DNA from: Nitzschia sp. pyKryTriq1
Taxonomy: Eukaryota > Bacillariophyta > Bacillariophyceae > Bacillariales > Bacillariaceae
NCBI GenBank assembly: GCA_956465555.1
Contig: OY101119.1
Coordinates: forward strand, 806,001 to 870,000
Reading direction: 5' to 3'
DNA length: 64,000 nt
The translations under genes and the position numbers were made by a program. The notes beneath the pieces were generated by a model. The model saw only the letters and a list, made by a program, of their open reading frames with translations. It was not told where the DNA came from and did no database searches. Each line of letters starts with the position of its first letter. Position 1 is the stretch's first letter. Shown in pieces: positions 26,303-51,220 of the stretch.

Positions 26303-26589
26303 AATATAGTAGCTAGAGAGATCTCAACTATTACTGTATTCTTATAAGCAGAGCGTGGCGGGAGTGAGAAGGGAGGAAGTCTCGTCGTGGTTCATCGTCT
26401 CTCGAACAAGCAAGTCGAGTGAGTCAAACATATATGACCATGACTCACTCGAACACCCCCCCTTCAACCCACGGCGCGAAATCCGCGAAAGCGCTTCTGA
26501 TCGAGGGCTTTCATTATTTCGACAACAAACCAAATGGCTTCGGGCACAGCATACTACTACTGTACTGTAGTTGGATTGCAAATAACACC

Positions 26590-33061: not shown

Positions 33062-34522
33062 ATGCCCAAGCAACAATCTTCGTCTCTACGAGGACCCACC
33101 GGTGGAAGGATATTCTTTTACCATGTTCCTCTGCTCGTGATGCTGGCCCTGTTTGCGCATACCGTGGTTGCTTGGTCACCAAATGCAGCATGCCCAGCGC
33201 CTAAGCTCGAGCGACGAACGTTCATTGCTAGCGTCGGAGGTTCTACAACTGCAGCGGCAATAGGGCAACTCTTTTTTGGCCCACAAAGTGCTTCCGCGAA
33301 GGAACCATTGTCTACAGATCCAACTACATTTGATACATACAACGTCATTCCCGATGCCAGTGCTAGCTTGGATCCGAAGCTGCTAAAGGTAGATGTGAGT
33401 ACAATCCAAAAATCGAAATAGCCTTGCTCAATTTGGTCGCTCACCAGTATTATGCGAAAGAATCTCGGATTTATTCAGAAACTTGCGGGGTCTAAATCGA
33501 AAGGGTCCATTTGGCTAGGAGAGCATCACAATTCCGTCAGCGACCACGACTTTCAAGAACGGTTCATTCGAATGTTGCACGAAGAACGTCGACGATTCGA
33601 ATTGAAGGACCAGCCCATGGCAATCGGCCTGGAACAAGTTCAGATTCAATTCCAACCGGTTCTGGATGATTATATCAGTGGTAAGATTAGTTTGGATGAA
33701 ATGAGACGTTTAGTTGAATGGGACAAACGATGGATGTGGAGCTTCGAGGGTTATCAAGGTGTCTTCGAGGCGGCTCGGGAACTGAAGAATGTGAGACTCT
33801 TGGCCCTCAATGTGGATTCAGAAGATTTGGCTATTGTTGAAAAGGGAGGATATCCTGCGTTACCCATGGAACAGCTTCGAAAGTACATAAAGGACCCCAT
33901 AGGCTTTGGTAACTTCGCTCAGGCTCGGAAATTCAAGACCTATGTGGACTACGTGATTGAGCCCTCCTATGAAGTTCATCGAAGGCTCGGCCTTCTGCAA
34001 TACACAAATGCAGGCGAGAAGCTCGATGTTGAAATGCCGTTTCGTAATTTTCTATCAGGTGATTATCTTTGGATGATATGATACAGAAATATAGCAGCAG
34101 CGATTTGGTATCTCACACGTACTGTGCACTTTGCCATTGCAATTTTAGGACGGATTCTTTGGGATGAAGGGATGGCAACAGCAGCTCATTCTTGGGTCTC
34201 CGAAAATGCTGGGGGGCTTTTGATCGGCTTAGTTGGTGCTGATCACGTCAAGTTTGGCAACGGGATCCCTGGACGCTTCGCTCGCCTGTCAGGTGGTAAA
34301 TGCGATTGCACGACAGTGATCATCAACCCGACGCTCATCGACTCCAGGCCTTCAGGATCGGTATCTAGCATCCCAGGGTCTGATTCTGCAAAAACGCCCG
34401 ACTTGATTACGCTTCAATTACGATATTTGAAGGACGATGTTGATCCCACCTCTGAGTCGAGAAGACTCCCTGAAAGTACGGGTGGAGTGTTACCTTTTGC
34501 CGACTACTTGGTTGTAACGTAA
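33062..34522 (+). CDS. ChaN-like (DUF399, Tiki-superfamily) protein, predicted thylakoid lumen
   Basis: Three exons, 33062..33394, 33479..34058 and 34149..34522, 428 residues. The leader is tripartite: a hydrophobic signal (HVPLLVMLALFAHTVVAW), then a twin-arginine segment (RRTFIASVGGSTTAAAIGQL) ending in QSASA-KEP, as for proteins exported to the thylakoid lumen by the Tat route. The mature domain has the ChaN core: GSIWLGEHHNSVSDHDFQE, the glutamate in AIGLEQVQIQFQP, LLALNVDSEDLAIVEKGGYP and GADHVKFGNGIPGRFARL. Bacterial ChaN binds heme or iron; the plastid members have no settled role. For intron 1 the acceptor at 33478 was chosen because it keeps phase 0; the stronger-looking CAG at 33447 breaks the frame. 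The stop lies inside a GTAAGT, so a further downstream exon cannot be excluded. It converges on gene A, 57 bp away. Confidence 0.8.
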
Positions 34523-34579: not shown

Positions 34580-36775
34580 TTACACACGAACTTGTGTTTT
34601 TCGTTTCCTTCGTTGTCTTGGTTTCCGCCACGATACGTCATCAAAGCTATCACTGAGAGCAGCTGAAATATTTTCCATCATGTCGTCTCCGGAGAAACCC
34701 CTCTCCAATTCCGACCAAAAAGTAGTATTGAGATTTCCGAGGCAACCATACATTCCACTTGCCTCTTTCGGGGTTTGCGTCCGTTGACTGTAAGAATGGT
34801 AGCTTATGCTTTCGTTGTCTTTTCTATATCGAGTTGAGCAACTATCGGAGGAGTAAACCGAGTGCTGATGCCTGGAAGATTCGTCGGTGGACTCACTGGT
34901 CAACAATGTTCCATGGCTTTGTTCTTCCCACCCAACAATGCCTGCCGTCTGATCGAGAATCTTATTCACGAAGAGCTCTGGTAGGCCAGCCTTGATTGCC
35001 CTACTGTGAATTTCCTCCCGCTCCTCGGTGGAGAGATTTGGTGACCGCAATTTCGGGCCGGCAATCTTTAGAAAATGGTTAAGCATCTTAATTTCTTGGG
35101 CAGAGGCACCAAGAGGCCTTGCTTTGGTTTTTCTTGGGTATCTCAGGTCATACTCTGAGTGGTTACTTGCTGTTGTCAAGCTGTCAGATTTATGCAGAGT
35201 GTGCGGGTATGTCATTGTGGATGCGGAGTCAGAATTGAAAATTCCCGCATCGATAATGATATCCATTCTGCCATCAACAGAGGTTGATTCGCTTGATGTG
35301 GGAGCCCTGTAAAGCCCGCTCACATGATCGGACACATCACTTTCGGTATCAAGAAGCGAGTTGTGAGAAGTTGGAGAAGGTTTCGCGTTAAAATGAATCG
35401 ACTTCTTCTGCTTGACCCGGTGTCTAACAGATTCGAAGCTCGACTCTCGATCCACGATTCTAACATCGCTAGGAACATTACTGTTCCTTCGTTTTTCTTT
35501 GAAATCCTTATCTTCTTGGGCAGTGTTTGTTTCAATATTGCCTGTGGGAACAAAAGAAGTTGTATCGCATATACTATTGTCCGCTGCATGGCTCTCTGGG
35601 AGTAACTCGTCTGTTTCAACAATTTTCTCCAACGTGAGTTGAATCTGGATGCTCTCCTCTCGTCTTTCAAGACACTGATTTGTCTGCTCGATGGGCGCTC
35701 CTTTTGGGGTGCAAGTTGGCAAAAGAGCTGGACTTAGGAGCTCTTTCCTCTCGTAAAGGATAGATTTTCTGTCTGGAGCTGCAGGCCCGTTCTTGGGGCT
35801 CTCGTCTTCGATCGATTCATTCACCGTGTCCAAACCAATAGAAAACAAGTTATCGTACATGTTGTCTCTTCGTAGCTGCGTAGATGGTTTCAAGCTTGCA
35901 TTCAGAGTCAGAAAGATTTTGCCTTCACCATCCTCATTGTCATCTAGAGAAATGATATCAGAGTGAACGCTTTTCTCTATCGATTCCCTTGGTCGTTCCA
36001 GCAGATTATGGAAGTTCAAAGTTTCAGGCATTTCCATCTTATTTTGTGAGTAAATGCTGCTTTCTTCCTCGTTTGGTTCTTTGTCACCATCGGCTGCCGC
36101 CCGAGGTAGCATTTTCACAGCATCCGGAGAAGTGAAGTCCTCTGGTAACATGGGTGATGGCCCAAAACCTCCCCAGGTCGAATCTCCCTGTCCATCGTGA
36201 GGATCATCTCCATGTAGGCTGTTACTGAAGATTCCGTCGAAGGGGTTCCAACCATCTATATCATTTGTAATGGCAGTCACTTCTGCTTCTTGCTGTGTCG
36301 TCGCTTCAAATGCCGACAAGAGTTGAGCGTCCGCTTGCTGAACGAAGGGGTCGACATTCTTCTCCTTGCCAACTTCTGAAAGGAGTTCCTTTGCTCGGTT
36401 GTGTCGAATATCATCTAACCTGTTTGCTTTCAACTGAGGAATTTTGGCCTTTCTGCTGTCCTTCGGAATGACTGGAGACAGATGGTCCTTTGAAACATCT
36501 TCATGTAGGTTGCGAACTTCGGGCCACTCTAATGCCGGTGCCTTGTTTTCTTCGTTTCCATCCAAAGACGTAACATTTGTCAAATCTTTCAATTCAGAAA
36601 ATGGATCATCTTGAGGAATGCTGGAGGGTGTCTCCAACAAGGGTTGGAAAGAGGCACTTCGAAATGATTTTATTCTTTGTGCCACTTTTGTTGACGACTC
36701 TTTGATCCCAGCTGGAGCGATGCCTTCGGCATCGTCTTCATCGAATTTGCGAAATCTTCTCCTTAGTCCGGGCAT
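34580..36775 (-). CDS. Large disordered protein A, shares a helical motif with genes B and C
   Basis: Intronless, 731 residues from the ATG at 36775. Mostly low-complexity and acidic/Ser-rich with no enzymatic domain I recognise. The N-terminus is basic-acidic (MPGLRRRFRKFDEDDAEGI). The one ordered piece lies in the C-terminal third (about 34935-35100): EIKMLNHFLKIAGPKL, then REEIHSRAIKAGLPELFVNK and ILDQT. This follows the pattern LNxF-x2-A ... A-x3-GL-x4-V-x2-LLxQ that recurs in the two giant proteins at 40836-45767 and 46403-51220. A Trp-rich acidic segment (WNPFDGIFSN, GDSTWGGFGPSP) might be a docking site. Very probably a real gene because the frame is long and uninterrupted, but function unknown. 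Confidence 0.72.
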   Translation of the reverse strand: MPGLRRRFRKFDEDDAEGIAPAGIKESSTKVAQRIKSFRSASFQPLLETPSSIPQDDPFSELKDLTNVTSLDGNEENKAPALEWPEVRNLHEDVSKDHLSPVIPKDSRKAKIPQLKANRLDDIRHNRAKELLSEVGKEKNVDPFVQQADAQLLSAFEATTQQEAEVTAITNDIDGWNPFDGIFSNSLHGDDPHDGQGDSTWGGFGPSPMLPEDFTSPDAVKMLPRAAADGDKEPNEEESSIYSQNKMEMPETLNFHNLLERPRESIEKSVHSDIISLDDNEDGEGKIFLTLNASLKPSTQLRRDNMYDNLFSIGLDTVNESIEDESPKNGPAAPDRKSILYERKELLSPALLPTCTPKGAPIEQTNQCLERREESIQIQLTLEKIVETDELLPESHAADNSICDTTSFVPTGNIETNTAQEDKDFKEKRRNSNVPSDVRIVDRESSFESVRHRVKQKKSIHFNAKPSPTSHNSLLDTESDVSDHVSGLYRAPTSSESTSVDGRMDIIIDAGIFNSDSASTMTYPHTLHKSDSLTTASNHSEYDLRYPRKTKARPLGASAQEIKMLNHFLKIAGPKLRSPNLSTEEREEIHSRAIKAGLPELFVNKILDQTAGIVGWEEQSHGTLLTSESTDESSRHQHSVYSSDSCSTRYRKDNESISYHSYSQRTQTPKEASGMYGCLGNLNTTFWSELERGFSGDDMMENISAALSDSFDDVSWRKPRQRRKRKTQVRV

Positions 36776-37317
36776 TCTGGTGCTTGTTGTTGTCTTTCTT
36801 GGTACAATTACAATTATTTTTGCTCTATAGCAACACTCTTCTATCGCTATCGATGAGGACGGTTCAGGTTTTCCACAGTTCCACAGATCTTTGCTTCTTT
36901 TCGCCCATAGCGTCGTTTCCGTAATAAAGAGTTCATTGTTGAGAGGCAGGAGTAGTAAGCTCGGCACGCTCTTTCATGTGCAAACGGCATACCTGAACAT
37001 TCATCTTCCTACATCTTTGTTGATAATTTAATCTCATTAATATATTCAGTTCCTCATACTGTATGTTGAGATCGATGTTCCCGCCATTTTGAATCATTCG
37101 ACCAGAACTATTTCGTCTGGCCTTACATCCGTTTGCAAGGCAAGGCCAACCCTGGCCAATGGAGAGGCGGAGCCTCTCAATAACACACTTTGAAGTTTGC
37201 GTCGATCACCGTCGACATACTGTAGTTGTACTGTACCGTATCGGCTACTCTCCCACAAGGAAGCGACTTCCTCCAAGACCACTACGTTCCCACTAACTCA
37301 ACACAAGGTTATTCAAT
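36776..37317. promoter_or_regulatory. Divergent region between gene A and the LLPH-like gene
   Basis: 542 bp between diverging ATGs, with one GTAC-type cluster (GTACTGTACCGTATCGG) near 37230. An open minus-strand frame continues upstream of gene A's chosen start without another ATG that would be convincing. Confidence 0.45.
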
Positions 37318-37872
37318 ATGGCAAAATCGATCCGATCCAAATGCAAGCGAAAGGCCAGGGCAGAGTTCCGTCGGACGATTGGAGATGTACGTACTTTTTT
37401 AGAGGTCCTCGCTCGCCGCCCTTTGAAAGAACAACATACGTGTCCTTCTTCTGTGGATCCTTAAAGGGATTGATCATCCCTCATGAGCATATTTTACTGG
37501 TTCCTGAACTTTTTTGCTCTCGCATTGTGTATACAGGAATTCGCCAAGAAAAAAATGGCTGAAGTCCAAGACAAGCTCAAGGACTGTTTGGAAAAGCAAT
37601 CCTTGAAATCCCTTGACAAACTTTCCAATATTTTTAACGCTGCCCAGGAACAAACCTTGCCTGAGAGTATGGATACTACTACGAACACGACAACTATTGG
37701 TATTGATGCTGTGGATGATGGTCTTATCGCCGCAAAGGAGCTCAAGGGAGAAAATAAGATTCCCGTAGGAAAGAAACCAAAGAAGAGTCGAAAGCACGGG
37801 CTCAAGACTGCACAACAGAAGCGACAGGAAGAACGGCCGAAACGAAGACCCAAATATTTTGTTCAGTTTTGA
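37318..37872 (+). CDS. LLPH-like (DUF2423) nucleolar protein
   Basis: Two exons, 37318..37386 and 37537..37872, 134 residues, phase 0, 150-bp intron. The N-terminus MAKSIRSKCKRKARAEFRRT is the hallmark of the LLPH/DUF2423 family (human LLPH and yeast Ybl028c begin MAKSLRSK.KRK.RA), which are small basic nucleolar proteins linked to ribosome assembly. The rest is helical (KDCLEKQSLKSLDKLSNIFN) and the C-terminus very basic (KKPKKSRKHGL then RPKRRPKYFVQF). Exon 1 is only 23 codons. It converges with Ku80. Confidence 0.82.
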
Positions 37873-38241
37873 ATACATGTGTGGCGGTAAAACTGGCTTT
37901 GAGTACAGACAGTACGGAACATAAGGAAAAGAACAGATATCTACAGAATAAATTATTGCATTCCTTTCGCAGCGTTTGCACTCGTCGTTTTCGTTGTCGT
38001 CGTGGAGTTTTCTGTTGTCGGATTATGATTCCAACTGGAGTCACCTCGGAACACCTAAATTGAGTTCAATCCAATCATATTGTTGATTACTAGTGCGACG
38101 CAAGATGACCGTCGCGAGGGATAGAGCTCCTTCTGTGCTGCATTCTGTGTGCCACAATGTTTCTGCTATTCATCCTTCCAAGCTGGAAGAGCAACTCGCA
38201 GATCTTGTTCAATGCAGCTTTCTTTCACTTTTTGACATGGG
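37873..38241. other. Convergent 3' gap between the LLPH-like gene and Ku80
   Basis: 369 bp holding both 3' ends. No gene is seen. Confidence 0.4.
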
Positions 38242-40176
38242 TCACTCTTTCAAGAAGTCATGATAGCTCTTGGGACCCTTTCGTTTCGCTTTGGATCCGC
38301 CGCGTCCCACCGATTTTGTATTCGTGACTTGTGTCAAGGGCAAGGCTGACCGAAACGCCTCCACGGCGGGCTGGGCTCGTTCTAGGATAGCCCTGGGGGT
38401 TGCCATGGGATCCTGTGATCGCACCGAAACGACGCCACTTTCGGGTTTGAGAATACGTTGGACGACCGTTTGATGAAAGCTGCGCAAGTACGGGTTGGCA
38501 ATGCGAGTGTGATCCAGGACGTCGGGTGGCAAAATGCAAGAATCAATCAGATTGTCGGCTGCCGCCTGCTTCTCTTGTGATTTACCCTGTGTAATATCCT
38601 CCGTTTCAAATGTCAAAGGGTCCAAGGACGACGACAAGTTGGTAACGTCACCTCGAAATGGCAATTGCATCATACACAAATGTCTGGGTGGCGAGGAATC
38701 ATTTTTGATGTTGAGCGGGAAGAGTCCTACCAAGATGGGGTCCGCATCTTTGGTTTTGACCAATGTGGCGATTCCAACTTGGTGGTTTCTTTGCAATGCT
38801 ATTGCCAAGGCAGCTATTGCCGCGCAGCACTTCAACGAATCGGCTCCAGCCAGGGCATAGGAGGGCCCGATGCGTAAGTACCTTGGTACCTGAGTCTCGT
38901 TCAGATATCCCAAGATCGTCAACTTGACGGGAGAAGGTCGTTTGAGACCAGTCATGTCATAGCCACTCATGGGAACCAGATCTGATCCGTACCGATACGC
39001 CCCCGTTATATCGACAATCTCTCGTGTATCTTGTTCCGGATCCCAGTGTGTAACGATAGTGTCAAAGGCTTGTGTGACTTCCTTTCCTCGTTCGTCTTTG
39101 ACAATCTTGGCGTCAGGGTTGTCAGGTCGTTCCCCCACTTGAAGTTCCACTACTTGCTTCTTCAAGGCTGGTATGGAAGCCTTGGACAAGAGCAGCGAGA
39201 AGCGTGCATCCAAAACAAGACCCGGCGCTATTTGAAATTGGACTTTGCGTCGCGTGGACTTGGGCAAGCGCTGCCCCAGAACTTTGGATAGGATGGGTTG
39301 CAACTCTTTGGCAGCCATGACAAATCCACCTGTCTTTTCCGTAAGGCTTAGCAACAGCTTTTCGTTTTGACGCTTGATTGACTGTGGATCCAAATCCTCG
39401 TCCTCCTCGTCTTCATCTTCGTCCATGTCGTCACCCGACGCCTCCGTAGCACTATCGCCGTCGTTGTCGTCGTCCTGTCCTTCCCCTTGTTTCGTTTCCT
39501 TATCAGCGGCAAAAGGATTCTCGCAGTCTGCTCTAGCTTGAGCTGCATTTTCATATTCGGCCTGTGATTCAAAATTCATTCCAATGACTTCGAGGCGACA
39601 TTCCATGGCCCGAAGGGAATCCAAGACAACCAGCAACTGCTGCGGATCAATTTGAACCTTGTGTTCGGCATCTGTAATCAAGACAATGCGCCGTTGGTAC
39701 TTCTTGCCGGAAGTTCGTTTGAACAAAGCGTCTGCCGCGACCACAATCCCATCGCAAAAGTCTCCTCGGAGGTGCTTGCTGGAGGGCGTGACTTGCAGGG
39801 CTTGAATTTGGCGCAAGAGATCGGGATGGGGTCGGTTGACTCCCGTCATGATTCCATCGCCTCCTAGTTCGACAATGTTTGGAAAGGGAATATCGGGGGA
39901 ACAAGAAGAAGAATCACCGTTGTCATCATTGGAATGGTGATGATTCGTCTCGTTCTTTGTCTCGGGCGCCAGCCAAAAATGATGATTGGTGGTGTTCGAT
40001 TTCAACACCAAGACGGCGACTTCGTGGGTGATGCTTCGAATCATCAAATCACTGATCATGTCCAAGCAAACTTTTTTGGCGCAGTCAAAACGAGACTTGG
40101 TGGTGGTGCTGGTGTCGTCATAGCTGGCCGCCATGGTTTCATTGGCGTCCAGGATCAGCACAACTGCTTCCTTCAT
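38242..40176 (-). CDS. KU80: Ku80 subunit of the DNA end-binding Ku heterodimer
   Basis: Intronless, 644 residues. Ku70/Ku80 binds double-strand ends for non-homologous end joining and telomere maintenance. The N-terminus is a vWA domain (AVVLILDANETMAAS, RRIVLITDAEHKVQIDP). An acidic insertion (about residues 235-265) precedes the Ku core: FDTIVTHWDPEQDTREIVDI, then YRYGSDLVPMSGYDMTGLKR, the most diagnostic Ku80 sequence, and ILGYLNETQVPRYLRIGPSY. A helical C-terminal arm follows (YLRSFHQTVVQRILKPESG), and the protein ends in a basic tail (GGSKAKRKGPKSYHDFLKE). The extra C-terminal domain and EExxxDDL motif that recruit DNA-PKcs in animals are absent, as in yeast and plants. Confidence 0.92.
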   Translation of the reverse strand: MKEAVVLILDANETMAASYDDTSTTTKSRFDCAKKVCLDMISDLMIRSITHEVAVLVLKSNTTNHHFWLAPETKNETNHHHSNDDNGDSSSCSPDIPFPNIVELGGDGIMTGVNRPHPDLLRQIQALQVTPSSKHLRGDFCDGIVVAADALFKRTSGKKYQRRIVLITDAEHKVQIDPQQLLVVLDSLRAMECRLEVIGMNFESQAEYENAAQARADCENPFAADKETKQGEGQDDDNDGDSATEASGDDMDEDEDEEDEDLDPQSIKRQNEKLLLSLTEKTGGFVMAAKELQPILSKVLGQRLPKSTRRKVQFQIAPGLVLDARFSLLLSKASIPALKKQVVELQVGERPDNPDAKIVKDERGKEVTQAFDTIVTHWDPEQDTREIVDITGAYRYGSDLVPMSGYDMTGLKRPSPVKLTILGYLNETQVPRYLRIGPSYALAGADSLKCCAAIAALAIALQRNHQVGIATLVKTKDADPILVGLFPLNIKNDSSPPRHLCMMQLPFRGDVTNLSSSLDPLTFETEDITQGKSQEKQAAADNLIDSCILPPDVLDHTRIANPYLRSFHQTVVQRILKPESGVVSVRSQDPMATPRAILERAQPAVEAFRSALPLTQVTNTKSVGRGGSKAKRKGPKSYHDFLKE

Positions 40177-40835
40177 GACGACGATGACGAAAGATCGAGG
40201 TGCTCGGAGATCAAAAACGAGTGCAATAAGGTACCGGTACTGTATCAGGGAATGAGTCGTTCACTGGTACAACTCCTCTATAATTTATGCGGTTGTACTT
40301 GTAAGAGTGGACCGGATCCTGGAAGCTGCCGCTACCTACAATATCACAATGTTATCCGCCATTGTCGTCGACCTTTTGTTGCTTCGTTTTTCGTTTTGCT
40401 TTTTGCTTCTCGTTTTCTCGTGCCGCCTTTTATTGTGCAAAAGGTGTGGTATTAAAAATAAACGAGGACTCGACTCAGGTGACTTCACTGGTCGACCAAT
40501 TTGACCGCTTGGTTCGAACAAAATCCGGGTCTCTACCAGTACCGGTACTTGTAATGGTACCAAGATGGTACTAGCATACCGGCATGTAGAAGTTTTCTAG
40601 AAGTGAAGAAGGAAACAAAAAATTATGCAATACTCTAATACTCTAGCTAGACAAATCGCTCATGTTTGTAGAGTGGACAGAAATGACATGGATTGTGACA
40701 TTTATCTTGGATGTGGAGGAGGAGAGCGGCAGCGTTCGAGATTCCGAGCTGGGAAATTATTCCATCCTCTACGAGCCTTCAGAGCTCGAACGAGGCATGA
40801 TGGCTTCCCGGGCTTTCAACCACCACAATAATACC
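40177..40835. promoter_or_regulatory. Region between Ku80 and gene B
   Basis: 659 bp with the Ku80 promoter (GTACCGGTACTGT at 40231-40243) and the 3' end of gene B, plus a second GTAC cluster at about 40540-40575. No gene is seen. Confidence 0.45.
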
Positions 40836-43800
40836 TTACGCAAGTCCTCGTTGGGCTCTTGCGGGCTTACTCTTTCTTCCCTTCTTTTTCTTCTGCGCCT
40901 TGCGTAACTTTCTTGTCAATTCGTCTCGGTACCCGTCGGAACTAATCGAACTGCCGTCGTCGTCATCATCGTCATCATCATCTTCTTCTTCGTGGTGCAC
41001 ATCCCCCGGTGTACCACAGTTGGCCCAGCCCTGGACCAGATTCTTCATATACTCCAATTGTTCCCATGCGTTGCAGCCAACATCTTGGACACGCTTTTTG
41101 GTACGTTTGCTGGACTGCGTCCTATCACGGGTATAATAGGTAGAGGCTTCATCTAGATCTTCTTCCATCGAATAGTCCGGCACACCCACTGCCGGTATAG
41201 GAATGTCCTCTGTCGTTGCTTCCATCGTTCTGCTTGCGTTGTTCGTATTGGCTTGCTGAAGCAGCTGGTCCACAAACTTTTGGGACAAGCCAACCTTCTC
41301 GGCAGCGGCTCGAACTCGTTTCTCTGAGTCGGCACTGAGTTTCTTCCCGTCGAAATTACTGGCAGCTACCTCGATGAATCGATTGAGCAAATTCACTTGC
41401 TCCTCAGTAGCGCCTTCGGGTAGTTCCGGCATGCCAGGCATCGATTGTAGGTTCCGAGCCATATCAGCGGCGTTCTCTTGCAAAGCTTCCAGGATGGCCT
41501 GTGCCTCAGGATCAGGTGGTGGCGGCGGTACACGTGAGTTGTGACTTCGATAAGAATGTCCCTGATGGTCCGCGATTTCGTTCCAAGAGGTTCCTTGTTC
41601 ATAGATAGGGTCACAATCTGGACCCACGTCCTTCCGAAGATGCCGCACAGAAGCGGGCCTGCAGGTGTCCGAATCAATAGGGGCTTCGTAGGAGTGTTGG
41701 TCTTTCGTTGGAGTCGGCACTTCTACTCCTTTGAGAGGAGCTCGACGAATTTTGCTGTTTGTTTGGCTTAGAAGGACATCGACAATATCCGGAGAGATTC
41801 CTCTTCGATGTGCAGCAAGGCGAATATCTTCTTCGTCCACCGTGGACTCCTCACTGTCAGCGGACCGAAGTTGCGTTGGAGACGTTGGTCCTGGACTAGA
41901 CTCGTCAAAATCAGGTTCGGAGTCGAGATATCGGCCACGCGAATCATGATTGTGTGGGTGGGGTCGACAATTGATGTCGTCCCTTGCCTCCTCCTCCTCT
42001 CTACTAGTTACTGTGTTTTCCATTAGTATTTCTGAGAGAGTATCAGAAGAATGTATCGCATCCAATGATCCAAAATTTTCGTGTCTTTGTGCTGGCACAG
42101 ACGAGGAAAATGGTCGAGCTTTCGGTGTTGGGTTCGATTGAAAAGATGGCGTAGCAAGCCCTGTGGGAGTATGAGGCGGGACGTTCGAACGAAGTTTCTT
42201 GTTTTTGGCGGAAACTGAGTCCAGGTAAGAGCTTAGAGCCTCGAAATCATCTTCTGAACTCGGCTGGTTACTATAATGCGGGGTGGGCATCCGATGCTGA
42301 AGCTTGCGTGATCGCTTCTCCTGCCTTTCGTTGGTCGATGGGTGTGACGGAGATCCCCCCATATGCGTCAAATTGGAAGTTGAATCAATATTTGACGTCA
42401 TTGTAGAAATTGGAAACGACTTCAAACCCATGTGAGACGAGAACGATCCAGCCACGGAGTCCCCCATCACATTTTTGGGCGCTCTACTTCTTGACGCGAC
42501 GCCCATCACATCCGATACTCTAGATCCTCGGTGGCTGACGAGGGGTGCATCTGGTTGCCGAGCCGAGTGCGGTAAAGAATCATGGTCGCTCTGTGGATGA
42601 GACATTCGACTTTCAAACATCCTTGAATTCTCTGAAGCCTGAATACTCTCGATTCTTCTCACATCAGAATCGTGGTAAGAATTTAAGACGTCAAAGTCAC
42701 TCTCCGAAGACATCGATCTCGTTGGCTCGGTTTGCCCATACAAGCCGAGTGAGCCTCTACTCGTGTCGAAGGACTGCTGCTCCACGTCGTCGACGCGGCG
42801 AAAGGCGTGGTCAATATTGCTGGTATGATATTTCGAACTTCCTGCTCGCTTTGAGCCTCCAGTATTATTTGGTCTGAATGCCTCCAGCATATGGTGGGAA
42901 TTTTGTGCAGAAGTGTCCACATCTGCTGACCAAACCACCAAATTAGGCAATTGTTCGTTGTTGAAGGCATTATTCCTGTCATCAGAGCGGTTGCCTTGTT
43001 TGTAAGGATCAGCAAGCTTCGAGGAATGTTTTGACTTTTTGGTGGAACGGCCCCCGCCAACGTTTCGAAAATGTCCAGTGACTCTCTCTTTCATGGAATC
43101 ATCAGAAGTGCTCGCGCTTGCTGGATTTGGCCCATACAACTGCCAGACTTCCTCAGTGCCATACTCCACAATACCTTTTGTTTTCTTTTCTCTGGTCTGG
43201 TGGGTTGAAAAAAGATTTTCTTGAAAGTTGGTCCAGTCGCCTGTTTGCTCCGACAGAACACCACGCCCTTTTCTTGATGCACTTGAGCCCACAATCGGTT
43301 GCTTGATTCTATTCGGGAAAATCTCCGAGACTTGACTTTTCTTTCGATTCGATTCTGGCACAACATTCTCACGACGGTCCTCGGAAAGTTTGCCCATTGA
43401 TGGAGATAGGGATATACTTTTCATACTCGGTTGTCTCGTTGAGTCATTGTCTTCTTCGAAAGCGCCGCGCCGCCCTCCTAAATTTTCCGTACTTTGGGGA
43501 CGTCGGAAAGTTGACCCAAAGTCGACCCAGCCACTTTCTTCTTGAGTATTTTGTACCCTGAACCTTTGATCAAGATGTTCCTGGTGAGGGGGCAAATGAC
43601 TGTCGGAAAACGTCTCACCATTTGCGGTATGATATGGCTCGTCGAATGCCTTTGTGCTCTCATGCTGCGGTCCATTTGAAAGTTTGTTGCTAGATTGGTG
43701 ACGATCGCAGTCAGTCACGAAGTACTCCATTTGTCGTGGGGGAGTGCTGCTGCTGATAGGCGTTTTCATACTGTCAATTTCATGAGGGCCATTACCCATT

Positions 43801-45767
43801 CTCGAATGCCCGAGTGGAGCAGGACTTTCTTGAAAAAGTTCGGACTCAGAGAGTGAAGTTCTAGATTGACGTTTTGGTATACTTCTCGATGATCTTCTTT
43901 GATTGTGTGATTGGCCATCTTCCTGTGATAACGAGCTACTCTCAGTCAGAGAGCTCAAAACGCCATTTGAATCGTCGCTGTGTTTTTGAACGATGACCAC
44001 TTCCGGCGTTTCTTGAGCATAAGTATCATGACCGGCACCAGAGTTCAAGATTGTATCATCGCAAAGCTCATTTTCGACGGTTCCTGCCGCCTCATATCGT
44101 TGACTTTTATCGCCGACGCCGGATTTTTTCAAGCGCTTTTGGGCATCGTGGTCTCTCTTTCTCTCAAGAGCGTTTCTCAAGTCGATGGTATCCCTTGCAG
44201 GCCTAACAGGCTTTGATTCCCCCTCACTAAATTCCCCGTTGTGTGACATTTCAAAGTTTTGTCTCGCCAAACTTAATGCGCTTCCCGTCATTGCCCTGTT
44301 CGCCCTATTGGCCTGAAGGTGGCTATCTAATTTGTGCACCTCTATTCGACCCGTTGAATCATGTCTTTCGAAAACTTTCGCGATATTCGGATTCAATCTG
44401 TTGACATTTGGCGCACGCAGTGGACTCCCTGCCCTCTGGACATTTCCTACATGTTGGGATCCCTTAGCTTCAAAAATTGCTCTTGAGTTCAGTATGCTTG
44501 ACTCTTGGAGAACTGCCAGAGAGTGTCGTTGCTGACGCCTGCTTTCAGGATGCTCCATCTCCATGTTTTCATTATGTCCAACTTCGCTCTTAGCTCTTGA
44601 CTTCACCACCTTTGATTGCTCTAGCGCCTCAAGGGAACTCCGCCGTTGTCGTTTTACATCCTCTCGACTTTGGCTGAGGCTCTTTCCGAACACCGCAAGG
44701 CCACGTTTGACTGCAGACACTTCTTCCTCGCCGTCGCTGGCGGCAGGCTTTTTTCGTAGCACCGCTTCTGCATGTGCCGACTGGCGTCGGCGCACGCCAC
44801 TCCTTCGAGAGCCACGACGATGATTCTGCTCGAGTGTTTCAGCTCCAGAGGCCACGGTTGAAACATCATCGGGAGGATAAACCCCCGGGCGCAGACTCAG
44901 AATATCATCTGTCACTATCGGCTGACAATCGGACATGATGTAGTCTTCCCCGTCACTTGGAAGAAGACCGAGAAACGAACGGTAGGTTGGAATATCCATT
45001 CTGGCCTCAGCTTGCTGTCTTGCAAGTTGAGCCTCCTCCTCTGATATAAATAGCCTCTGCCTCTCCGTGGTGTAGTCACACCGTATTCTTGCAGCTTCTG
45101 CTTCATCAGCCGACCTTTTCTCATTTCTCAGCGCCTCTTGGTACAAACGGCTTGTAAGAGATTCTTTGCTCATTACGTCACTAAGATCCATATCATGTTC
45201 TTTGAGAAATTGTTGTATGATTTTGTGCATAAATACTCGCCACACCGAGGCTGAGACGTCAAAACCACTCCCATCGTCTTTTGCACCCTCCTCTAGCAAT
45301 CGAGACAACTGAGGGTCGTTCTTCATCTTTCGCGCGAAAGCGTCATCCGAAGCCATGCAATATTTGAGTACAGCATTTTTATCCGACGTTTGCTCTACGA
45401 GTGTATCGACCACCTCTAAAGATAAGCCAACCTGTTTGGCTGCTTCGCGAAGACGTTTTTGGTCTGTCTTGTTCAGCTGGCGGCCTTTGAACGTATGGCC
45501 CGCAACAAAAATAAACTGATTCAACGCATTGATTGCAGCACGTGCTTCCTCATTTTTCCTCCTTAATCTTGAAAGTTTCTCTGAGCTCATTCTATCATGC
45601 GGCGTTTCATCTTTCTGTGGGCCGACCAGAAATTCAGCCAGAGTGTTGGCAGTTGTGGTCGAGTTTTGCGTTGCCGATGCATCATCGGTGTTGCTTGGAT
45701 ATCCTCTTGGCGGTGGAACGTATGACCCGTCGGCAGTGTCTATCGTCTGTCGACGATCATCCATCAT
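40836..45767 (-). CDS. Very large disordered protein B with repeated helical motif
   Basis: Intronless, 1643 residues. Mostly Ser/Arg/His/Asp-rich and probably disordered. The shared motif occurs near the N-terminus (about 45384-45533: LNQFIFVAGHTFKGRQLNKT, REAAKQVGLSLEVVDTLVEQ), partly near 41750-41840 (IRLAAHRRGISPDIVDVLLS) and near the C-terminus (about 41241-41399: LNRFIEVAASNFDGKKL, AAAEKVGLSQKFVDQLLQQ). Between the motifs at the N-terminal side lies a helical Arg/Glu/Ala coiled-coil-like segment (EAQLARQQAEARMDI). The end has an Asp run of about ten and a Lys-rich tail (KAQKKKKGRKSKPARAQ). No enzyme motif, signal peptide or membrane segment is visible. The length of the open frame and the recurring motif argue for a real gene; function unknown. 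Confidence 0.72.
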   Translation of the reverse strand: MMDDRRQTIDTADGSYVPPPRGYPSNTDDASATQNSTTTANTLAEFLVGPQKDETPHDRMSSEKLSRLRRKNEEARAAINALNQFIFVAGHTFKGRQLNKTDQKRLREAAKQVGLSLEVVDTLVEQTSDKNAVLKYCMASDDAFARKMKNDPQLSRLLEEGAKDDGSGFDVSASVWRVFMHKIIQQFLKEHDMDLSDVMSKESLTSRLYQEALRNEKRSADEAEAARIRCDYTTERQRLFISEEEAQLARQQAEARMDIPTYRSFLGLLPSDGEDYIMSDCQPIVTDDILSLRPGVYPPDDVSTVASGAETLEQNHRRGSRRSGVRRRQSAHAEAVLRKKPAASDGEEEVSAVKRGLAVFGKSLSQSREDVKRQRRSSLEALEQSKVVKSRAKSEVGHNENMEMEHPESRRQQRHSLAVLQESSILNSRAIFEAKGSQHVGNVQRAGSPLRAPNVNRLNPNIAKVFERHDSTGRIEVHKLDSHLQANRANRAMTGSALSLARQNFEMSHNGEFSEGESKPVRPARDTIDLRNALERKRDHDAQKRLKKSGVGDKSQRYEAAGTVENELCDDTILNSGAGHDTYAQETPEVVIVQKHSDDSNGVLSSLTESSSLSQEDGQSHNQRRSSRSIPKRQSRTSLSESELFQESPAPLGHSRMGNGPHEIDSMKTPISSSTPPRQMEYFVTDCDRHQSSNKLSNGPQHESTKAFDEPYHTANGETFSDSHLPPHQEHLDQRFRVQNTQEESGWVDFGSTFRRPQSTENLGGRRGAFEEDNDSTRQPSMKSISLSPSMGKLSEDRRENVVPESNRKKSQVSEIFPNRIKQPIVGSSASRKGRGVLSEQTGDWTNFQENLFSTHQTREKKTKGIVEYGTEEVWQLYGPNPASASTSDDSMKERVTGHFRNVGGGRSTKKSKHSSKLADPYKQGNRSDDRNNAFNNEQLPNLVVWSADVDTSAQNSHHMLEAFRPNNTGGSKRAGSSKYHTSNIDHAFRRVDDVEQQSFDTSRGSLGLYGQTEPTRSMSSESDFDVLNSYHDSDVRRIESIQASENSRMFESRMSHPQSDHDSLPHSARQPDAPLVSHRGSRVSDVMGVASRSRAPKNVMGDSVAGSFSSHMGLKSFPISTMTSNIDSTSNLTHMGGSPSHPSTNERQEKRSRKLQHRMPTPHYSNQPSSEDDFEALSSYLDSVSAKNKKLRSNVPPHTPTGLATPSFQSNPTPKARPFSSSVPAQRHENFGSLDAIHSSDTLSEILMENTVTSREEEEARDDINCRPHPHNHDSRGRYLDSEPDFDESSPGPTSPTQLRSADSEESTVDEEDIRLAAHRRGISPDIVDVLLSQTNSKIRRAPLKGVEVPTPTKDQHSYEAPIDSDTCRPASVRHLRKDVGPDCDPIYEQGTSWNEIADHQGHSYRSHNSRVPPPPPDPEAQAILEALQENAADMARNLQSMPGMPELPEGATEEQVNLLNRFIEVAASNFDGKKLSADSEKRVRAAAEKVGLSQKFVDQLLQQANTNNASRTMEATTEDIPIPAVGVPDYSMEEDLDEASTYYTRDRTQSSKRTKKRVQDVGCNAWEQLEYMKNLVQGWANCGTPGDVHHEEEDDDDDDDDDGSSISSDGYRDELTRKLRKAQKKKKGRKSKPARAQRGLA

Positions 45768-46402
45768 GGTCAGACTATATTTTCAATTGCATGGAGAATA
45801 GACAATATTACAGAGGCCTCATCAAGTAGTGTCGTCTACAGGTACGAAGTACAAGAGGTGTTTGGTGATAAAAAGACGAGAGAGACGAAAAAAAGAGCAC
45901 AAAAAGGGATTTGCTCGGGATTCGATTGTTCACGATTGCTCAGTAGAGCAAATACGTAGAATTCTACGGTAGAGTGGACACGCTTGCGCGCGAGCGAGCA
46001 CGGCGTCGTCTCAGATAGAAACGGCTACTTGGATGCTAAGCCGGCGGGCGCGAGACTGGCAGCCGCGCAAAAGGCGACCACCAAAAGAAGAAAAACACAA
46101 TCTACGGTAATCGCACATTGCCTGTCTGTCGGTATCACTGTTACTCGCTCTACTTGTACTAGTACTGTAGCTAATCTACAGAGACTACCTGTCCCTGGTA
46201 CCCTTACCGTATGTATTCATTTGCGACCTTGAAGTGTCTGTACTCCATCCTCTAGTAGTCTGTATACCACAAAGATACTGCTGATTCACAAAGATACTGA
46301 TTGTCTTTACGAGGGTGCTATCTGAATACAATAATATAAATAGACTATGTCTCATTTACAAGTTAAAATTCATTTCTGCAAATGCTGTTGTTGGTGAATG
46401 CT
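45768..46402. promoter_or_regulatory. Upstream region of gene B
   Basis: 635 bp between the start of B and the 3' end of C. Contains scattered GTAC (GTACGAAGTAC) and a Gly/Ala-type GC-rich patch around 45985-46070. No gene is seen. Confidence 0.4.
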
Positions 46403-49400
46403 CTAGTACGGGAAAGTCCCTCTGGGGAAATATTTCTTTCGCCATCGGCTTCGTCGCAAAGAACTCGTGAAGTCGGGGTGCACTCGCGTCACGCGTTCGC
46501 CAATCTTTTGTCTAACATTGATGATTTCACCGCATTCTGGGGCTTCTTCCCATGAGGAGCTTCCGCTGCTGCCTGTTCCGCTCGAGGCAGAGTAAGAAGA
46601 CTCGTCGTAAATGTGGTGTGAAGTTGAGCCTTCTGTATCGCTGCCATGATCAGTATATCCATGATCAGTGGTGGTGAATGTTCCACGATCAGTGACGCTG
46701 TGATCAGTGACACTTCCATGGTCAGTGAATGTAGTACCATGGTCAGTGAACGTTCCACCATCAGTAGCTGTGAAATGATCAGTGCTGGTTTCGCCGTCTG
46801 TGTAGCTTCCGTCGGTTGTGTACTCATCAGATTTGGAGGCTCTCGATTTAGATGCTCTGGATTTCGAAGCTCTGAGAGCTCGGCGCTCATGGGGTGATTT
46901 CCACTGGGTGAACCACTCTTTGGTCCATTCACCCTGATCGGGCAAATTCTCGATCGGCATCTCCATGGATTTCGGCTTGCAAACCGGCATTTTGATCTTT
47001 TGGTTTCCACGCTTTCGGATCAAATCACCGAACCAGTTTCTTGAGTACGAATAGCTTTTCTCCTGAAGAAACCGCTGCTGGACTTCACGGCGCTCCCAGG
47101 GAATATAGTCCTCTTCCTCCCGCACAGTGAGATCGACACCCGTAGACTCGTAGATGGAGTGCACATCGACTTCCATAAATCCAGGATGATATTGCGTCCT
47201 CTCTCTGTATAGCCGTCTCCAAGGTTGGTGGTTCTTGAACATCTTCTTGCTGAAAACAAAACGGCGAAGATTATCGGCTGTTGCGACACCATCGATGGGA
47301 AGCGGTCTGCGCAAATTGGAATTGGATCTTGGGGACAACCAGTTGGTGTGGGCCTCCCACCCTGCTCCGTAATGTGCCATTCCATTCCGGCGAGTCCATT
47401 CATCATCCTCCCCGAAACCGTACCTTTTGTTGATAATCGGATGAGCTTCTTTGCGTGCCTGCAGTTTTTTTACACGTTCGGCGTGGGGAGGACTCGTGGG
47501 TGCCAGCTTCTCGGGCGCTCCCACGGCCTTGTCGTTGTCTTCCTCGTCATCATCAAAATCAGAATCCACTCCAATTATTTTGTCGACAATACCAGATTGA
47601 TAAGAGTCGGTAATTTGAATTTCCAGGTCGGAATTTTTCTTCTGCTGTCCCTTCCACCACTCATTGTCGTCGTCGTCATCCTCGATCTTGGTGATAAAAG
47701 TATCATCAGCATCGATCTCGATGGTCTGATCTACACCGCCCTTGGTGACAAAAGTATCGTCAGCATCGATCTCGATGGTCTCGTTTATACCGCCCTTGGT
47801 CACAAAAGTAACGTCAGCATCGATCTCGATGGTCTCATCTGCACCGCCCGCCACTCCAATATAGTCCTCAGCCCGCCAACCATTTGCGTTGGGGTGTCCT
47901 CGATTACGAACTCCGAATCGAATCAAAAAAGCGTTGATTTCTTGGTCTTGATCCAAGTCTTTGGGTGGGAAAGCATCAGGAGCCTGCTGGCTTCGTTCGT
48001 CGATAAGATCCAAAAAGCGGTCTACCACTTCTAGTGGGATTTCGGCACGCAGTGCGGCTTGTCGAATCTGTGCGGCCTCGATGATGGACGGCTTCTCTCC
48101 AGCGACAACTGGTGCTACGATTCGTTGGAAGAATCTCACATTTTGGGCCATGAATCCGCTGTCATCTCTAAACTTTTCGTCCAGGGCGGCGAAGAACCTG
48201 GCGATTCCTACCAACGTGAAGAGATTGCGGGGAGTTTTTAGAGCAGCTTCCGATGAGATTCCCTCACTGTCGACTGAGGTCCCTTCATCAGCCGTGACCA
48301 GGTCGATTACGTCTTCATTGTCAATCTCAAGCGCCTGAAATTGCTCGAGGAATCCGGGACCTTCTTCTTCTTCTTCTTCCTCTGCACTCTTTGCTTTGGA
48401 CGAGAATGCGAACGGATTGAACCACTGGAATTGTGAAGTGGATTTCAAGTCTTTACTTGCGTCAGCGGTTCCGTGCTCGTTCACATCATCAGCTGACGTG
48501 GATCCTTGCAAGAATGCTTCCACAAAGTTGTCTCCATTCTCCTCACCCGATTCAGTTTCGTCTCCCGAGTCTTCCACAAAATTCTCTCCAATCTCCTCAC
48601 CCGATTCGACTTCGTCTCCGGTGTCGGAGTCAGCGGTGTCAGGGTCAGGTCGCGTCTCCGCCACTTCCTCGTCTGCGTCAATCTTGGGTCCAAGATGACC
48701 AGATGGGTCAACCAAAGGGCTTTCACGATCTTCGTCTGGTGATGGGGCTGCCGGAATGTTGTCAGTAGGAAAGATTTCTTCCTCTATTTCAGCCCCAAGA
48801 GCACTTTCTAAAACTTCAACGCCATCCTCCCCGTCCTCGATGACACATTCATCATCGTATGCAAAGCCAGACTTTTGCGTGTCAGATTCTGTCTCCGTAT
48901 CATCATCAACCTTCGAATCATCGTTTTCCTTCATGCTGAATTCACTTTGGGGTACAGAACTGTCGTCTGATAGAAGACTTATCAATTTTCGGGCCTTCGA
49001 CCTTGACGCAGGGTTCAACGCAGCTGGACGAGTTCGACCAGCAGCTTTCATCGTCTCTTCACTAGCAATGTCTTTGAGGTCCCATGGCAGCGAATCATCG
49101 TCATCTTTCATGCTTGGAGAATTAGGAAGATTTCTGAGACCAATTTCTGGGAGATCGGTAACAATATCGCTACAGTGTGATTCATCATCTTCATCGTCCT
49201 CACCGTCGTCTTCTTGGTGAGAATTCTTGTCATCTGGGTGACCTGCCTCGTTGGCATCATCTGATCCATCTGCCTCAAGCATTTCATAACGACCAACAAG
49301 CTGGGACGCTCGACCAACCTCCATGTCAGATCCGTCGGCGGAAAGCTGCGTTCGAAGAGGAACGCCAGCGTCGTCAACTAATTCGCTGGAGGTGCTTGTT

Positions 49401-51220
49401 TCAGTGGTCTCCGACTTGGCGGAGGAGAGCTCTTCGTGTGCTGTCTGGCTGGACTCCTTAGAGGGCTTGTCTTGGCCATTCGTTCCAGCCTGTTCACGTG
49501 GAGTAGGAGGGAGCCCCCTTTTGAAAGTTGCTTCATTACCCGCATTGACTTCTAGTTTCGCTTCACTAATATCCGTCTCCGAAGATGAGGCTTCAATCAC
49601 TGGTGTTAGGCTTGTGCCAACTTCATCCGTGTTCCCAGATCTGCAGTCATTGAACTTTGACGTTTCCTGGTCCATATCATCCTCTGCCTTCTTTTCTTCT
49701 TCTTCCATAGACTTGTGATGATCCATGATCATGTTTTCAGATTCAAGGGATTCTACAGAGTATGACGGCGCCATGGCTTGCGATTCATGCATGCGCATTA
49801 CGGCATCATTCATATTAATGGTGGTCGCTGGGGGGTCCACTTGATCAGTTTTGCGAAAAGTCATGACAGCAGGAGGATCCATACCCTGGATACCCCGTGG
49901 CATTGATTTTGCTTCTACCTGCTCGTAAATGGGCGAGGGCTTCGATACGCGTGTTTGTGCGACAATGGTGTTGCTTTCCTCGCTGTAGTTTTGGACGATC
50001 GCAGCCTCAACCTCGTCATCATCCGCGTAGGAGACTGCTGTAGTTTCATCCAAGGTCACGGTTTTGCTAGCATTTGTTTCGCTTTGCCACGAAGTAACAG
50101 ACACAACTGGATCCGCAAACGTTGGAGCATCGCCGTGTTGCCTCGTTGACATTTCGCTAGCAGTAGAAGGAGCCTTGCTGACGACAGCATCAATGTAAGC
50201 ACCAATCTCTGCTAAAGTTTCCGGATTGACCGAACCGGTCGACGAGCTTTCGCTGCTGTCATCGTCACCCTCCTCACTTCCATAGATGAAATCATCGGAT
50301 GTGGCTCTGCGCATAGCCCCGATGGGATCCGAAACTGTGCTGCTGCTGCTAGCTACTTGTTCAAGCACACTGTGAATCTCCCCAGGTTCTCTGATGTTGA
50401 GAGAGTATAGAAATGTGTTGACTTCCTCGATTGTCTTTGAATCCACTGGAACCTCAAAGGAGTCAGCTGACTCCTCTCCGCCAGAAGCGGCTTTTTGAAG
50501 ATTCAGTCTGTCGAGAAAGTTTCCGATGTCTTTGATCATTTGTTCATCAACTGCCATCTCAGAGGTATCTACCGAATCAACGTCAAACCCGGTCGAAAGC
50601 GAGGCAGAGGGAGACATGACCCTCGTAGAGCGCTGGTCCGATTTAGAAACCATTCGTCCTCGACTTGCTGATTGTGTCGCAAGTTGGATTTCACGCTTCA
50701 CTAATTCCAAGGGACTCATGAAACGGGAGCTCCTACTTTGTGGAATATTCTCCTCGGGTTCGTCAGACATGGACGCAAAGGGCAACGAATCGTCTTCGTC
50801 ATCAGGATGGGAAGCTGTGGCAACATCCGATCGAGAGGCAAACACGTTCATTAGAAAGTTGTTTGGCTGGGCAGCAGCAGCAGCAGCAGCAGCTTGTCTA
50901 GAAGAATGAGGGTGCCTTCTCATTTCGGAGGAGCCCGTTTGTCCTGCTGGAGCCAGCGGCGATCTCGCATTATCCACGCCAGTAGGAGCCACAGAACTTC
51001 GAAGCGTCTTCAGTTCAGATAGGTCTTTCACAATCGTGTTCGGTGGTTGCGATGCTGCAGACTGTCTAGCTCGAACAAGAGCTATAGCCTCGGAGACCCG
51101 TTCCCTCGCGGGAGCCCGCAAAGGCCCCGACTGACGACTTCGAGCCATTAACGAAGGAGTACCTGCAGATTGGTGTCCAACGTCCCCTTGGGGAGGCTTG
51201 GACTGAGCAGCCAGCGTCAT
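46403..51220 (-). CDS. Very large acidic repeat protein C, relative of A and B
   Basis: Intronless, 1605 residues from the ATG at 51220. The N-terminal two thirds are acidic and low-complexity, with repeated helical bits of the form IxEIxxFLxxLN (IKDIGNFLDRLNL, IEEVNTFLYSLNI, LAEIGAYIDAV) and duplicated acidic units around 48530-48620 (SGEEIGENFVE). A motif related to genes A and B lies at about 47990-48160: NVRFFQRIVAPVVAG, then IRQAALRAEIPLEVVDRFLD. Three tandem repeats of TIEIDADDTFVTK follow (47690-47850). After that comes a basic, Trp/Tyr-rich stretch that may fold (YGFGEDDEWTRRNGMAHYGA, FKNHQPWRRLYRERTQYHPG). Near the C-terminus are RASKS x3 and TDHG repeats, and the end is basic (SRWRKKYFPRGTFPY). 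Function unknown. Confidence 0.72.
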   Translation of the reverse strand: MTLAAQSKPPQGDVGHQSAGTPSLMARSRQSGPLRAPARERVSEAIALVRARQSAASQPPNTIVKDLSELKTLRSSVAPTGVDNARSPLAPAGQTGSSEMRRHPHSSRQAAAAAAAAQPNNFLMNVFASRSDVATASHPDDEDDSLPFASMSDEPEENIPQSRSSRFMSPLELVKREIQLATQSASRGRMVSKSDQRSTRVMSPSASLSTGFDVDSVDTSEMAVDEQMIKDIGNFLDRLNLQKAASGGEESADSFEVPVDSKTIEEVNTFLYSLNIREPGEIHSVLEQVASSSSTVSDPIGAMRRATSDDFIYGSEEGDDDSSESSSTGSVNPETLAEIGAYIDAVVSKAPSTASEMSTRQHGDAPTFADPVVSVTSWQSETNASKTVTLDETTAVSYADDDEVEAAIVQNYSEESNTIVAQTRVSKPSPIYEQVEAKSMPRGIQGMDPPAVMTFRKTDQVDPPATTINMNDAVMRMHESQAMAPSYSVESLESENMIMDHHKSMEEEEKKAEDDMDQETSKFNDCRSGNTDEVGTSLTPVIEASSSETDISEAKLEVNAGNEATFKRGLPPTPREQAGTNGQDKPSKESSQTAHEELSSAKSETTETSTSSELVDDAGVPLRTQLSADGSDMEVGRASQLVGRYEMLEADGSDDANEAGHPDDKNSHQEDDGEDDEDDESHCSDIVTDLPEIGLRNLPNSPSMKDDDDSLPWDLKDIASEETMKAAGRTRPAALNPASRSKARKLISLLSDDSSVPQSEFSMKENDDSKVDDDTETESDTQKSGFAYDDECVIEDGEDGVEVLESALGAEIEEEIFPTDNIPAAPSPDEDRESPLVDPSGHLGPKIDADEEVAETRPDPDTADSDTGDEVESGEEIGENFVEDSGDETESGEENGDNFVEAFLQGSTSADDVNEHGTADASKDLKSTSQFQWFNPFAFSSKAKSAEEEEEEEGPGFLEQFQALEIDNEDVIDLVTADEGTSVDSEGISSEAALKTPRNLFTLVGIARFFAALDEKFRDDSGFMAQNVRFFQRIVAPVVAGEKPSIIEAAQIRQAALRAEIPLEVVDRFLDLIDERSQQAPDAFPPKDLDQDQEINAFLIRFGVRNRGHPNANGWRAEDYIGVAGGADETIEIDADVTFVTKGGINETIEIDADDTFVTKGGVDQTIEIDADDTFITKIEDDDDDNEWWKGQQKKNSDLEIQITDSYQSGIVDKIIGVDSDFDDDEEDNDKAVGAPEKLAPTSPPHAERVKKLQARKEAHPIINKRYGFGEDDEWTRRNGMAHYGAGWEAHTNWLSPRSNSNLRRPLPIDGVATADNLRRFVFSKKMFKNHQPWRRLYRERTQYHPGFMEVDVHSIYESTGVDLTVREEEDYIPWERREVQQRFLQEKSYSYSRNWFGDLIRKRGNQKIKMPVCKPKSMEMPIENLPDQGEWTKEWFTQWKSPHERRALRASKSRASKSRASKSDEYTTDGSYTDGETSTDHFTATDGGTFTDHGTTFTDHGSVTDHSVTDRGTFTTTDHGYTDHGSDTEGSTSHHIYDESSYSASSGTGSSGSSSWEEAPECGEIINVRQKIGERVTRVHPDFTSSLRRSRWRKKYFPRGTFPY

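Follow-up and report, generated by a model that had tools for sequence, protein, structure and literature searches.

A candidate three-helix module shared by long proteins A and B, and probably C, encoded by neighbouring genes of Nitzschia sp. pyKryTriq1

Genes A, B and C and their neighbours

Much that still lacks an explanation in diatom genomes consists of large disordered proteins in which no domain is known. Three genes for long proteins, called here A, B and C, lie within 17 kb of one another in the window, that is, the whole stretch of 64,000 nucleotides that was analysed (assembly GCA_956465555.1, contig OY101119.1, positions 806,001 to 870,000). The genes and the one recognizable neighbour among them are as follows.

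34583..36775, minus strand: gene A, uninterrupted open frame of 731 amino acids, with the module toward the C-terminus and a basic tail
38245..40260, minus strand: Ku80-like gene between A and B, outside the family; stop-to-stop open frame (Pfam Ku 9e-17, Ku_N 1.7e-5)
40839..45767, minus strand: gene B, uninterrupted open frame of 1643 amino acids
46406..51220, minus strand: gene C, uninterrupted open frame of 1605 amino acids, net charge -158

The three frames are present at the sizes and on the strand given by the original prediction, and AT skew is negative across all of 34-50 kb, as is expected where one strand codes. B and C are neighbours, and between A and B lie only the Ku80 gene and one small frame. 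The naming of Ku80 is borne out by its matches to both Pfam families, whereas the gene called 'LLPH-like' (37474-37869, plus strand) has no match among the Pfam families at E 0.001 or at 0.1, and its name is not upheld. The frame adjoining gene A at 33422-34078 (plus strand) matches the haem-binding uptake/Tiki ChaN family (7.6e-27). Elsewhere in the window, Pfam detects a gene with a helicase-associated domain and, at 26368-28533, an Ezh2 MCSS domain (E 8.6e-7), which may be where an Enhancer of zeste gene begins, its remainder lying in the next frames.

The proteins had been described as disordered. Disorder-promoting residues account for 68-71% of A, B and C, in keeping with that description, whereas the windowed TOP-IDP mean exceeds 0.2 over only 29-38% of residues; judged by composition, they are probably long proteins that are mostly disordered. 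On reading of the sequences, A, B and C each have a basic C-terminal tail, and no N-terminal signal is obvious in any of them. Gene A as a whole has no match in Pfam.

Copies of the module

The module spans about 55 residues and consists of a segment H1 with the signature LNxFxxxA and a segment H2-turn-H3 with the signature AxxxGLSxxxxVDxLLxQ. The copies considered here are listed below.

34940..35104, minus strand: module copy in A (residues 558-612); blastp against B, E 1.96e-7; leave-one-out HMM 15.1 bits, iE 7.7e-4
45381..45545, minus strand: module copy B1 (residues 75-129); leave-one-out HMM 35.2 bits, 4.5e-10
41754..41858, minus strand: half module B2 (residues 1304-1338), H2-H3 only; HMM 11.1-17.0 bits
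41244..41408, minus strand: module copy B3 (residues 1454-1508); leave-one-out HMM 45.8 bits, 2.5e-13
47990..48151, minus strand: module copy of C (residues 1024-1077), divergent, with sequence support for H2-H3 only; PSSM 30.0, with 20.0 as the highest control score

The resemblance between A and B lies well beyond chance. The blastp match, obtained with the low-complexity filter, covers 56 residues without a gap, and a second match, to B1, has an E-value of 0.002. In the leave-one-out tests, each profile was built without the copy tested and searched against the 1302 six-frame open reading frames (ORFs) of the window with at least 30 amino acids, with E-values set for 1000 sequences; block shuffles, 1000 per protein per model, reached maxima of 2.9-8.3 bits. 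Across A, B1 and B3, ten columns do not vary; their residues are L, N, F, A, L, A, G, L, V and Q. When the modules were shuffled and aligned in pairs, six of the ten pairs had scores matched by none of 3000 shuffles, and the remaining four by 3 to 35; the score of the full A-B alignment was reached by 0 of 200 shuffles. B carries two full copies and one partial copy, as had been claimed: the score range of the half copy B2 comes from five HMM models, B2 being absent from all of them, and in a 28-column PSSM of H2-H3 it scores 47.7, compared with 15.7 for the top ORF of the window that is not A, B or C. The H2-H3 part of A alone, when left out of the PSSM, exceeds the best control by a narrow margin (33.0 against 29.0), a less impressive result, so that the membership of A rests on the whole module. 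A common origin of the modules of A and B is supported at the level of sequence. Among the 1302 six-frame ORFs of the 64-kb window, there is no further convincing copy outside A, B and C.

The shared piece of about 50 residues had been claimed for all three proteins, with the copy in C as the weakest, and for C the claim stands only in part. The C copy has neither the signature LNxF, nor the GL, nor the final Q. With the whole module, C scores 7.9 bits (iE 0.16), which is above 1000 shuffles of C (maximum 6.3) and lower than the 8.4 bits of a different frame in the window, so that the copy fails at the strict level; in the bacterial control, a set made up of pattern-selected loci, the A/B profile reaches 12.8 bits. 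The H2-H3 part of C, scored with the 28-column profile, gives 30.0, compared with 20.0 for the best of 161,345 control positions, these being taken from 965 bacterial ORFs (980 minus 15 that hold the search pattern) and the other ORFs of the window. The corresponding Gumbel probability is ~2e-4 per protein of the length of C, and ~0.006 if the other frames of the window are counted as trials (an estimate from ~50,000 positions, or ~32 such lengths). With B2 omitted from the profile, C scores 30.7, compared with 21.7 for the best of the 965 bacterial ORFs, and within the window it ranks directly after A, B1, B3 and B2, the next ORF scoring 15.7. If the pattern-holding ORFs are kept in the control, its maxima are 31.7, compared with 30.7 for C, and 38.5, compared with 33.0 for A; in the H2-H3 profile, a score of 31.0 was attained by one or more of 500 block shuffles of C.

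Pairwise comparison is less favourable to C. The blastp search found no A-C match in the module and B-C matches there only at E 0.38 to 2.8, and the unmasked alignments of C are no better than shuffles, 73 of 200 reaching the A-C score and 42 of 200 the B-C score; at full length, only the A-B alignment surpasses shuffled sequences. The H1 of C, compared with those of A, B1 and B3, scores -2.3, under control maxima of 17, and has no sequence support. In a single-sequence AlphaFold2 (AF2) prediction of C, made without any row from A or B (pLDDT 54), helices at 1021-1039, 1046-1058 and 1063-1077 fall within ~3 residues of the module helices, and two more helices are predicted outside the module. 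C is a probable member of the module family by common descent.

Predicted structure and searches for relatives

With a four-row alignment and B3 as the query, AlphaFold2 places helices at 10-25, 34-47 and 51-63 of 65 positions (mean pLDDT 63, pTM 0.37). This low-confidence model lends weak support to a module of three helices, instead of the 'paired-helix' unit that had been proposed. Helix amphipathicity is above that of shuffles at <0.05 in only 4 of the 12 module helices. The net charge of the third helix is -1 in A, -4 in B1, -2 in B2, 0 in B3 and -4 in C; since no copy has a basic third helix, DNA binding is unlikely. None of the 168 Foldseek matches of the predicted module in the PDB reaches E 0.001. 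All of the best 30 are homeodomain proteins (best E 0.62), and the best 50 include six oxidoreductases and two entries with titles that hold no protein name. The structure search of a viral library gave nothing useful (best E 1.6).

No Pfam family reaches its cut-off with A, B, C or the segments from A, B1, B3 and C. The strongest Pfam match on the module is that of Phage_T7_Capsid in B (E 0.0061; 17.4 bits, against a cut-off of 27.1), and the two NCBIfam matches are both far under their cut-offs. A profile of the module matched 16 of 177,635 distinct PDB sequences at E up to 10, and gene B alone matched no PDB sequence at 0.1. The top two of the 16 (E 7e-5 and 8.9e-5) are designed TPR-like repeats that sum four weak stretches, each of at most 7.5 bits. 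Among the PDB matches listed, no best stretch covers all three helices; this search served as the proposed test of whether a profile does equally well in unrelated helical proteins. Trans-prenyltransferases (GGPP/FPP synthases) have a similar helix-turn-helix stretch of ~30 residues, which matches at E 0.02 in the PDB, and the NCBIfam model of GGPP synthase matches B1 at E 0.072 (12.1 bits, against a cut-off of 460); however, the PDB matches extend over H2-H3 only, and the remainder of the enzyme is absent. The layout of the module (helix, loop, helix, GLS turn, helix) presumably resembles that of TerB-like domains, but there is no Pfam TerB match at E up to 10, a level at which HMMER filters drop most weak matches, and no such domain among the 16 PDB matches.

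With the A/B profile, 196 stretches of viral contigs and 95 stretches of prokaryote genome contigs fit the pattern, and none was confirmed in either set. Searches of viral contigs with B, with C and with the last 365 residues of C detected no stretch. At the DNA level, a pattern for H2-H3 matched no stretch of viral contigs and 16 stretches of prokaryote genome contigs, among which three pairs are identical or nearly so; the E-values of these pattern-chosen stretches are meaningless. The 16 were judged unrelated, as they score at most 18.4 bits over the part by which they were selected and have no LNxF upstream, where 3 residues were read for L015, 17 for L005, 20 for L002 and 45 for all other stretches. 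One of them, L010, presumably resembles pyrroline-5-carboxylate reductase. The portions of the literature that were available contain no description of the module. Judging from these and from Pfam, NCBIfam and PDB sequences, the module appears to match no known family.

Possible origin and role of the module, and short repeats in C

Outside the module, A, B and C have nothing detectable in common. When the modules were masked, the A-B, A-C and B-C alignments showed no similarity, their scores being reached by 126, 116 and 140 of 200 shuffles, respectively, and a family resemblance beyond the module was rejected on this ground. The only DNA repeats between the genes are acidic-codon runs (D1 and D2), the other five repeat families lying inside C. 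Any duplication of the genes must therefore be old, or the module alone has moved. Local duplication fits the arrangement of the locus, because the genes lie on one strand, B is next to C, only Ku80 and a small frame separate A from B, and the window holds no further convincing copy. The proposal that the genes form a family that arose by local duplication and diverged outside the motif is supported in part, by the module of A and B, the layout and the chance-level masked alignments; C is only a probable member, and duplication is not proved by the 64-kb window examined. We infer that A, B and probably C arose in this way.

The explanation preferred here, with about an even chance of being right, is that local duplication long ago made paralogues of A, B and probably C, which would be scaffold-like, probably mostly disordered proteins that carry a three-helix docking module. 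The module would be the sole sequence found in common among these long proteins. The helices H1, H2 and H3 may pack against one another by way of the conserved residues L, F, A, L, A, G, L and V, the neutral-to-acidic face of the module would be offered to a shared partner or to one another, and the disordered arms and charged tails could serve as tethers. The module is most likely a small protein-docking domain; third-helix charges of -4 to 0 suit a surface that binds protein, not DNA. The three proteins may function as scaffolds. The NCBD of CBP is a folded island in a disordered scaffold and, like the module, a small three-helix unit within a long disordered protein; this is an analogy only, no sequence relation having been found.

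That the module is instead a homeodomain-like helix-turn-helix that binds DNA, with A, B and C as transcription or chromatin factors, appears improbable. Homeodomain and helix-turn-helix proteins (PDB 2m34, 8pnc and 1enh), which are the top Foldseek neighbours, have three helices in ~60 residues, H2 and H3 being joined by a short turn, and so does the module as predicted; the spacing A-x3-G-x5-V is that of classical helix-turn-helix motifs, B3 has weak Pfam matches to HTH_28 (E 0.023) and HTH_1 (E 0.11), and the basic tails of all three proteins would suit such a role. However, every Foldseek E-value is at least 0.62, no Pfam family is matched at its cut-off, and the homeobox model of Pfam matches neither A, B and C nor the segments from A, B1, B3 and C at E up to 10. 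The third helix is neutral to acidic, never basic, and WFxNxR, the homeodomain signature in helix 3, occurs in none of the five copies. A domain widespread in the lineage and spread by shuffling, of which three carriers lie within 17 kb by coincidence or with tandem duplication as just part of the cause, is a rather unlikely source of the module. Shuffling would leave A, B and C without detectable likeness outside the module, as is found, but it does not lead one to expect three genes on one strand with B adjoining C, or a window in which none of the 1302 six-frame ORFs outside A, B and C holds another convincing copy.

Convergence of amphipathic helices without common descent is very improbable, and for A and B it is already disfavoured by the gapless match of 56 residues (E 1.96e-7), the 45.8 bits of B3 in the leave-one-out test and the scores of the module pairs against shuffles. 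What could be said for it is that C alone is near chance level in the full-module profile, that H2-H3 is matched at E ~0.02 in proteins with no relation to it, prenyl synthases among them, and that the H2-H3 pattern occurs in the 16 prokaryote stretches judged unrelated. The preferred reading, paralogues with a docking module, has a practical consequence: a module kept while all else diverged marks the testable part of otherwise featureless proteins and would represent a new lineage-specific domain family, should the module and the linkage of the genes both be conserved among orthologues. An orphan small helical domain in neighbouring paralogues is an ordinary kind of discovery, and the tests run indicate nothing extraordinary.

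A further idea, with only the slimmest chance of being correct, is a split module that assembles between proteins, in which helices absent from B2 or C are supplied in trans and wire A, B and C into one network. It was suggested by B2, an H2-H3 half without H1, and by C, which has two or more short helices, each about as long as H1, that lack an H2-H3. These helices belong to a short repeat with the following copies.

50495..50548, minus strand: r1, copy of the short helical repeat at residues 225-242 of C; score when left out 27.0, reached by 0 of 500 shuffles
50390..50443, minus strand: r2, copy of the short helical repeat at residues 260-277 of C; score when left out 25.5, reached by 3 of 500 shuffles
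50174..50227, minus strand: r3, copy of the short helical repeat at residues 332-349 of C; score when left out 17.5, reached by 89 of 500 shuffles and not significant
47906..47959, minus strand: possible weak copy r4 in C (residues 1088-1105); score 18.0, 10 of 500 shuffles; another window ORF scores 18.7
42204..42257, minus strand: possible weak copy of the repeat of C in B (residues 1171-1188); score 20.0, 4 of 500 shuffles; another window ORF scores 18.7

Only r1 and r2 are secure, given the left-out results of r1 to r3. A relationship between this repeat and H1 is not borne out: the best match of the r1-r3 profile in A is the H1 of A, but 197 of 500 shuffles equal it. Gene C also contains two 54-bp in-frame tandem repeats, at 47687-47849 (three copies) and 48517-48624 (two copies), which suggests that the gene grew by local repeats. 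Beyond the three genes, a 45-bp tandem repeat at 59406-59815 (9.1 copies, 98% match) would read as a 15-residue repeat in the open plus-strand frame 59392-59814 and is probably a recently expanded minisatellite.
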